Made by a program: the position numbers and the translations under genes
Assembly: GCA_008501635.1 (NCBI GenBank)
Contig: QQUJ01000022.1
Location: forward strand, 62,001-126,000
Length of the DNA: 64,000 bases
Reading direction: 5' to 3'
From: Pseudomonadota bacterium
Lineage (GTDB): Bacteria; Pseudomonadota; Gammaproteobacteria; QQUJ01
In this document: positions 37,678-39,660 of the stretch, piece by piece
Numbering within the stretch: the first letter of the stretch is position 1
How the letters are laid out: each line of letters starts with the position of its first letter
The notes under the pieces: generated by a model
The model's input: only the letters and a program-made list of their open reading frames with translations
Databases searched by the model: none
What the model was told of the DNA's origin: nothing

Positions 37678-38686
37678 CCGCACCCGCTCAGCCATCGATC
37701 GCGCCCGCCCACGCACCAGGACCGAAGCCAAGCGCCATGCCGCCTCGGGCAGACCATCGATCACGACGCGTTTTCAAGCGTATTGGATCAACCACCTGCA
37801 AACCCTGCTCGCCAGCCTCGGCAGGCTATGGCGCACCCCCTTTGCCAGTCTCATGACCGCGGCGGTGATCGGCATCGCCCTGGCGCTTCCCGCGGGCATG
37901 CACCTGTTGCTCGACAATGCCCAGCGCCTCAGCGCCAACTGGGACGGCTCGGCGCGGATCTCGGTATTTCTCAAGGATTCGGTGGGCGACAGCCAGGCGC
38001 GCACCCTCGCCGACAAGCTGCGCAGCCGCCAGGAGGTAGCCGACACGGAGTTCATTTCACGCAACGCCGCGCTGGAGGAGTTTCGCACCCTTTCCGGCTT
38101 TGGCGACGCGTTGAAGGCGCTGGACAAAAACCCGCTCCCTGCCGTGCTCGTGATCCGCCCCTCCATGGCCGCCAGCGACCCCGCACGCATCGAGCAACTG
38201 GTCAGTGAGTTACAGACCCTGCCGGAGGTGGATTTCGCACAGCTCGACATGCAGTGGGTACGGCGCCTCCACGCCATCATGGAGATTGCCCAGCGCGGCG
38301 TATTTGTCCTTGGCGGTCTGCTGGCCCTTGCGGTGCTGTTGATCGTCGGCAATACCATCCGGCTCGACATCTTCAACCGCCGCCAGGAGATCGAGGTGAT
38401 CAAGATGGTGGGCGGCACCGACGCCTTCATTCGCCGCCCCTTTCTCTACGGCGGCATGTGGTACGGACTGCTGGGTGGCGTGATCGCCTGGCTGATGGTG
38501 GGCGTCTCCTGGTGGTTGTTGCAGAATCCGGTGCGCGGGCTCGCCAGTCTCTATCACAGCGGTTTCGGGCTGGAAATGCTGGGCGTTGGCAGCAGTCTGC
38601 TCCTCTTTGCCCTGGCGGGGCTGCTGGGTTGGCTCGGCTCCTGGCTGGCGGTCGGGCGACATCTACGGGCCATCGAACCCGCCTAA
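37652..38686 (+). CDS. ftsX: Cell division protein FtsX
   Basis: 344 residues with a basic N-terminal tail, a first membrane helix near 65 (LMTAAVIGIALALPAGMHLL), a periplasmic domain (~85-215) and three C-terminal helices of the MacB/FtsX type, ending in AIEPA. It transmits FtsE ATPase cycles to periplasmic amidase activators. The start at 37652 overlaps ftsE; a later ATG at 37670 is possible. Confidence 0.95.
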   Translation: MPTPKAMRSRTRSAIDRARPRTRTEAKRHAASGRPSITTRFQAYWINHLQTLLASLGRLWRTPFASLMTAAVIGIALALPAGMHLLLDNAQRLSANWDGSARISVFLKDSVGDSQARTLADKLRSRQEVADTEFISRNAALEEFRTLSGFGDALKALDKNPLPAVLVIRPSMAASDPARIEQLVSELQTLPEVDFAQLDMQWVRRLHAIMEIAQRGVFVLGGLLALAVLLIVGNTIRLDIFNRRQEIEVIKMVGGTDAFIRRPFLYGGMWYGLLGGVIAWLMVGVSWWLLQNPVRGLASLYHSGFGLEMLGVGSSLLLFALAGLLGWLGSWLAVGRHLRAIEPA

Positions 38687-38742
38687 ACCATTAACCACGT
38701 ATTATCAGTGGGTTATCCGCGATTCAGGAACTTTCCCCACGA

Positions 38743-38769
38743 TTAGCACTCTCACGCAACGAGTGCTAA
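38743..38769. promoter_or_regulatory. CIRCE operator (HrcA site) at rpoH
   Basis: TTAGCACTC, nine bases, GAGTGCTAA: a perfect match to the CIRCE inverted repeat that HrcA represses from. It starts 60 bases before the rpoH start codon. Its right arm runs into TAAGAT (38767-38772), a plausible -10 hexamer, and TTAGCA of the left arm fits a -35 at 18 bases, so HrcA would block promoter access directly. Confidence 0.9.
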
Positions 38770-38802
38770 GATAGACACCAGTTTCTAGGGAGGAATTCAT
38801 CC

Positions 38803-39660
38803 GTGAGTAACGCTATCGCAACCCTGCGCCTGCCCGTTCCGGTCGGCAGCATCGATGCCTATATTCAGTCCGTCAACACCTTCCCCATGCTCAGCGAGGA
38901 GGAGGAGAAACGGTTGGCGCGGCAACTGCGCGACCATGAGGACCTGGATGCCGCATGGCAGATGGTAACCTCCCATCTGCGCTTTGTGGTGCGTATCGCC
39001 CGCGGGTATATGGGTTACGGGCTACCGCTACCGGACCTGATCCAGGAGGGCAACATTGGCCTGATGAAGGCGGTCAAGCGCTTCGACCCCGAGCAGGGGG
39101 TGCGGCTGGTCTCATTTGCCGTCCACTGGGTACGCGCCGAAATTCACGAATTCGTTCTGCGCAACTGGCGCATCGTCAAAGTGGCCACTACCAAGGCCCA
39201 GCGCAAACTGTTCTTCAACCTGCGCAAATCCAAGAAACGCCTCGGCTGGATGAACCAGGACGAGGTCAACGCCGTGGCGCAGGACCTGGGCGTAAAGCCC
39301 GAGACGGTGCTGGAGATGGAACGCAGGCTCAGCAGCCACGATGTGGCCTTCGACATGCCGCTGAACGCCGATGACGATGACTCGGCGAGTTTCGCTCCCG
39401 CCGGCTACCTGGCGGACCGCAGCGCCGATCCTGCCGCGGTGATCGAACGTGAGGACTGGGAGCAAACCAGCCACAACCGCCTCGCCACCGCTTTGGAGGG
39501 CCTCAACGCGCGCAGCCGCGACATCGTCGCACGCCGCTGGCTGCATGACGACAAGGTCACACTCCAGGAATTGGCGAGCGAGTACGGCGTTTCGGTGGAG
39601 CGCATTCGCCAGATCGAACAGCAGGCCATGAAAAAGCTCCGCGGTGTCATGGACGCCTGA
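38803..39660 (+). CDS. rpoH: RNA polymerase sigma-32 factor RpoH
   Basis: 285 residues from a GTG with AGGGAGGAA upstream. Region 2 has [20 protein letters not shown] and [20 protein letters not shown]; the RpoH-specific box is [16 protein letters not shown]; region 4 ends in [20 protein letters not shown]. It directs heat-shock transcription. The CIRCE operator upstream adds HrcA control. Terminator follows 25 bases after the stop. Confidence 0.97.

Follow-up and report, generated by a model that had tools for sequence, protein, structure and literature searches.

In Escherichia coli, the P3 promoter of rpoH, the gene for sigma-32, is transcribed by RpoE (sigma-E) (PMC8103513), whose canonical motifs are GGAACTT and TCAAA (PMC4890791). 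In this regard, the region upstream of rpoH in E. coli K-12 contains the string GAACTT-N16-TCTGA. A second described case concerns CIRCE, the operator of the repressor HrcA, which was predicted computationally before rpoH in Geobacter sulfurreducens in 2004 (PMC545781, Table 8). The locus presented here carries motifs of both kinds upstream of a single rpoH gene. It lies in a 64-kb stretch of DNA, analysed as a whole and referred to as the window, from a 3.93 Mb genome that is 98% complete. The gene at 38803-39660 is identified as RpoH (TIGR02392, 414.7 bits; cut-off 323.1), and it is preceded by the following features, listed with the evidence on which each is placed:

38727..38733, + strand: putative sigma-E (RpoE) -35 element GGAACTT (sequence, register alignment, genome pattern search)
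38743..38748, + strand: sigma-70-like -35 element TTAGCA, in the left CIRCE arm, weak (sequence)
38743..38769, + strand: CIRCE operator TTAGCACTC-N9-GAGTGCTAA (sequence, pattern search)
38750..38754, + strand: putative sigma-E -10 element TCTCA, spanning the junction between the left CIRCE arm and the loop, spacer 16 nt (sequence, register alignment)
38767..38772, + strand: sigma-70-like -10 element TAAGAT, comprising the last bases of the right CIRCE arm and the 3 nt that follow it; its position is conserved among relatives (sequence, alignment)
38787..38793, + strand: Shine-Dalgarno-like AGGGAGG (seen in the sequence)
38803..39660, + strand: rpoH, sigma-32, 285 aa, GTG start (TIGR02392 match)

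The CIRCE operator and its partners in the genome

The segment 38743-38769 reads TTAGCACTC-TCACGCAAC-GAGTGCTAA, a perfect CIRCE inverted repeat with zero mismatches, as the sequence-only reading of this DNA had proposed, and ends 33 nt ahead of the rpoH start codon. It is the sole match at up to 3 mismatches within the window, where 0 are expected, and 100 shuffles of the sequence gave 0 matches. The same genome encodes one hrcA (E 3.9e-64) and contains exactly three CIRCE-like sites at up to 3 mismatches, located at rpoH (0 mismatches), at groES (0 mismatches, 83 nt before the start) and at hrcA itself (2 mismatches, 42 nt before the start). The expected elements of a CIRCE/HrcA regulon, namely the repressor gene, the inverted repeat upstream of a target gene and further operators at groESL and hrcA, are thus all present in this genome. 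Additionally, the genome encodes rpoE (TIGR02939, E 4.1e-91), the sigma factor that a sigma-E promoter at rpoH would call for.

Conservation of the operator and its dependence on hrcA

Conservation was examined at 80 rpoH loci of named genomes, with few exceptions from Gammaproteobacteria as defined by GTDB, a class that includes the beta-proteobacteria. CIRCE at up to 3 mismatches stands some 50-150 nt before the matched RpoH start in 55 of these loci, and 2 others come without upstream sequence. A counting pattern that combined CIRCE, a Shine-Dalgarno sequence and a start codon was dropped, having failed on the window itself.

Of 185 genomes sampled across the class, 130 have hrcA, and some CIRCE occurs in 128 of these 130 as against 10 of the 55 hrcA-negative ones. 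At rpoH in particular, CIRCE is present in 61/65 hrcA-positive and 3/25 hrcA-negative genomes (p 5e-14), these 90 upstream regions coming from a non-random set, drawn from the highest RpoH scores, the hrcA-negative genomes being selected for the comparison, most of the set coming from different families and none from the genus or family of the source. Two of the three hrcA-negative exceptions are assemblies only 62-73% complete, and the third carries a remnant with 3 mismatches; conversely, the rpoH copy examined has no CIRCE in four of the 65 hrcA-positive genomes. The presence of the site at rpoH thus depends on hrcA, and on this comparison CIRCE at rpoH is the rule in the class where hrcA has been retained, not an oddity. 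Absence of hrcA from the genome or of the site from relatives would have spoken against the sequence-only reading, and neither is the case. A study of beta-, gamma- and epsilon-proteobacteria by Permina and Gelfand from 2003, cited in PMC545781, may well have described this arrangement for the class before.

Two genomes carry two rpoH-like genes each: CIRCE is found at one of the two in G031 and at neither of the copies listed for G176.

As for the hrcA-negative genomes, a sigma-E-like site is found at rpoH in 8/24, two of which also have CIRCE, while about 10% is reached in shuffles; these sites are suggestive only. One hrcA-negative genome has kept a decayed CIRCE at rpoH. A simple reading would be that CIRCE was lost together with hrcA, with the sigma-E promoter retained.

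Promoter motifs in and across the operator

The sequence-only reading had further proposed that CIRCE lies within the likely rpoH promoter, a view borne out by promoter motifs predicted in and across the operator. The promoter it had named, TTAGCA and TAAGAT separated by 18 nt (38743-38772), is indeed present, although weak: each hexamer agrees at 4/6 positions with the consensus (TTGACA, 16-18 nt, TATAAT), and the promoter scanner did not call the pair. As an account of the promoter region it is also incomplete, for a better-matching and conserved sigma-E promoter motif, GGAACTT-N16-TCTCA, is found at 38727-38754 with its -10 element nested in CIRCE. This segment has the GGAACTT and TCnnA elements of a sigma-E promoter, its 16-nt spacer lies within the 15-17 nt range, and its register is conserved. 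The string GGAACTT-N16-TCnnA by itself is no evidence, because it is rarer in the genome (only 3 copies) than a reversed control pattern (six per strand); what counts as evidence, from the aligned sites, is its register relative to CIRCE. Another copy of the string occurs near the junction of mlaD-like and mlaC-like genes (about 1501-1528 of locus L240; G000:C30:207990-208017), where it is a possible candidate sigma-E promoter within a lipid-transport operon.

When rpoH sites are aligned, GGAAC(TT) appears upstream of CIRCE and the loop tends to start with TAA, TCA or TTA, giving GGAACTT-N16-TCTnA. The start of GAAC lies 14-16 nt ahead of CIRCE in 82/117 rpoH sites and in 1/42 groESL/hrcA sites (p 9e-16), and a sigma-70 type -10 element, TAnnnT, lies across the right arm in 112/117 and 8/42, respectively (p 9e-22), p-values that overstate independence given the shared descent of the sites, an effect limited by their spread across families. 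The spacer of the sigma-E motif is 16 in 71 of the 82 rpoH sites with an in-register -35 element. GAAC at position -15 occurs in 50/81 sites, the maximum in base shuffles being 4 at any single position, and a loop starting with TnA is found in 52/117 rpoH sites versus 8/84 control orientations. In addition, the left arm has TTG instead of TTA, nearer to the -35 consensus TTGACA, in 25/117 rpoH sites, the symmetrical substitution in the right arm occurring in 2. On these motif counts the rpoH layout is specific and unlike that of groESL, because the promoter elements of groESL (TTGA followed by a -10 element like TAnnn(n) or TATnnT) stand directly upstream of CIRCE in 27/29 sites.

These data bear on whether HrcA might act solely through the sigma-70-like promoter, as in the model first proposed for this locus, with the upstream GGAACTT being no working sigma-E promoter here. 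The right-arm -10 position is the more constant of the two features, and about 30% of rpoH CIRCE sites have no in-register sigma-E -35 element, both of which fit such a model. However, the register of GAAC is strongly non-random, the window combines a full GGAACTT with an ideal 16-nt spacer in one of only three such strings in its genome, RpoE is encoded there, and the same motif is used at rpoH of E. coli, which makes a purely sigma-70-dependent arrangement rather unlikely.

The position of the promoter motifs also bears on whether the inverted repeat acts chiefly in the mRNA, as a stem for stability or translation, and not as a DNA operator. A transcribed CIRCE can form a stem, and the groESL CIRCE sits downstream of its promoter; at rpoH, however, the full stem would be left out of the transcript because the predicted starts lie within or after CIRCE. 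Moreover, the presence of CIRCE tracks hrcA, and the predicted folding of the 5' region from 38760 is not stronger than that of shuffled sequences (z 0.52). A role mainly in the mRNA is in our estimate extremely unlikely.

A few further sites showed related layouts. A composite pattern of sigma-E motif plus CIRCE, run over the phylum, matched in 14/398 genomes, and was too strict to be used for frequencies; some of its matches, L226 and L235 for example, resemble groESL sites in which a GAAC occurs by chance. In L227 (about 1501-1542; G071), a sigma-E -35 element and CIRCE (GAACTTCTCCTGGCGTTAGCACTCTTATTGACAGAGTGCTAA) precede a gene with a ClpB-like start, not rpoH. One family (f13), represented by L112 (G012) and L231-L234 (G457, G270, G475, G566), has behind the sigma-E -35 element a variant operator, TTAGCAGTC-N9-GACTGCTAA, with both arms altered symmetrically; at rpoH in L112 it reads TTAGCAGTC...GATTGCTAA. 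This variant suggests, from its arms, a shifted specificity of HrcA.

In the window, ftsY, ftsE, ftsX and rpoH follow each other on a single strand, and read-through across the ftsX-rpoH gap might yield HrcA-insensitive rpoH mRNA, since no terminator-like site is found in 38500-38900, the region covering this gap. The same gene order and missing terminator would suit a situation in which rpoH is expressed mostly by read-through from ftsEX, with HrcA on CIRCE being a roadblock or of little effect; against this stands the conserved pair of promoter motifs at the operator, and we consider it very unlikely.

Proposed control of rpoH and comparison with known systems

The findings presented here lead us to propose, as a likely though not certain model, that the HrcA operator overlaps two rpoH promoters and occludes both, with rpoH integrating envelope stress and chaperonin load. 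The observed basis of this model comprises the operator, the promoter motifs, their conservation, the dependence on hrcA and the different layout at groESL, whereas HrcA binding, GroEL titration, occlusion and the use of sigma-E rest on what is already established about HrcA/CIRCE and RpoE; repression of rpoH by HrcA is thus something we infer. In the unstressed cell, HrcA supported by GroEL would sit on CIRCE and block polymerase carrying either sigma-E or sigma-70, keeping rpoH low. When unfolded proteins fill GroEL, HrcA would become inactive and leave CIRCE free, and rpoH would then be transcribed by the sigma-70 holoenzyme and, under envelope stress, also by the sigma-E holoenzyme. Chaperonin supply would feed back on all three loci, because groESL and hrcA bear the same operator as rpoH.

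More broadly, and with confidence only slightly above even, we propose that Gammaproteobacteria with HrcA, taken as GTDB defines the class and thus with the beta-proteobacteria, share one compact, conserved element in which an HrcA operator is combined with a sigma-E promoter and a housekeeping promoter. Transcription of rpoH from either promoter would require that HrcA be released, which would couple sigma-32 to envelope stress and to chaperonin supply, and the E. coli layout would be a remnant after HrcA loss. Textbook accounts of the heat-shock response are built on E. coli, a species without HrcA. Should the composite element function as proposed, the master heat-shock sigma factor of many related bacteria would be controlled by a repressor responsive to GroEL supply, with transcription of rpoH by the housekeeping sigma factor and by sigma-E both under its gate; how two heat-shock circuits came together, and how lineages were rewired after losing HrcA, would then become testable.

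No literature combining sigma-E or RpoE, rpoH and HrcA was found in a search that was thin on subscription journals. HrcA control over sigma-32, whose possible novelty had been raised by the sequence-only reading, is not new, given the conservation in the class described above and the Geobacter sulfurreducens prediction: the available portion of that report (PMC545781) gives a perfect TTAGCACTC-N9-GAGTGCTAA at -51 of rpoH, alongside sites for hrcA and groESL of the same genome. The differences are that Geobacter sulfurreducens is a delta-proteobacterium and that this portion mentions no sigma-E promoter for rpoH. The operator at rpoH is therefore of a known kind, and its compact composite with a sigma-E promoter is apparently undescribed. 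With HrcA/CIRCE control of groESL the locus shares the operator and the genome, and it differs in having its promoter elements in and across CIRCE instead of just upstream. With the P3 promoter of E. coli it shares a sigma-E promoter motif upstream of rpoH and the N16 spacer, and it differs from E. coli K-12 in the presence of CIRCE, which is absent upstream of rpoH there, and in that of HrcA, for which the control search of E. coli gave no match.
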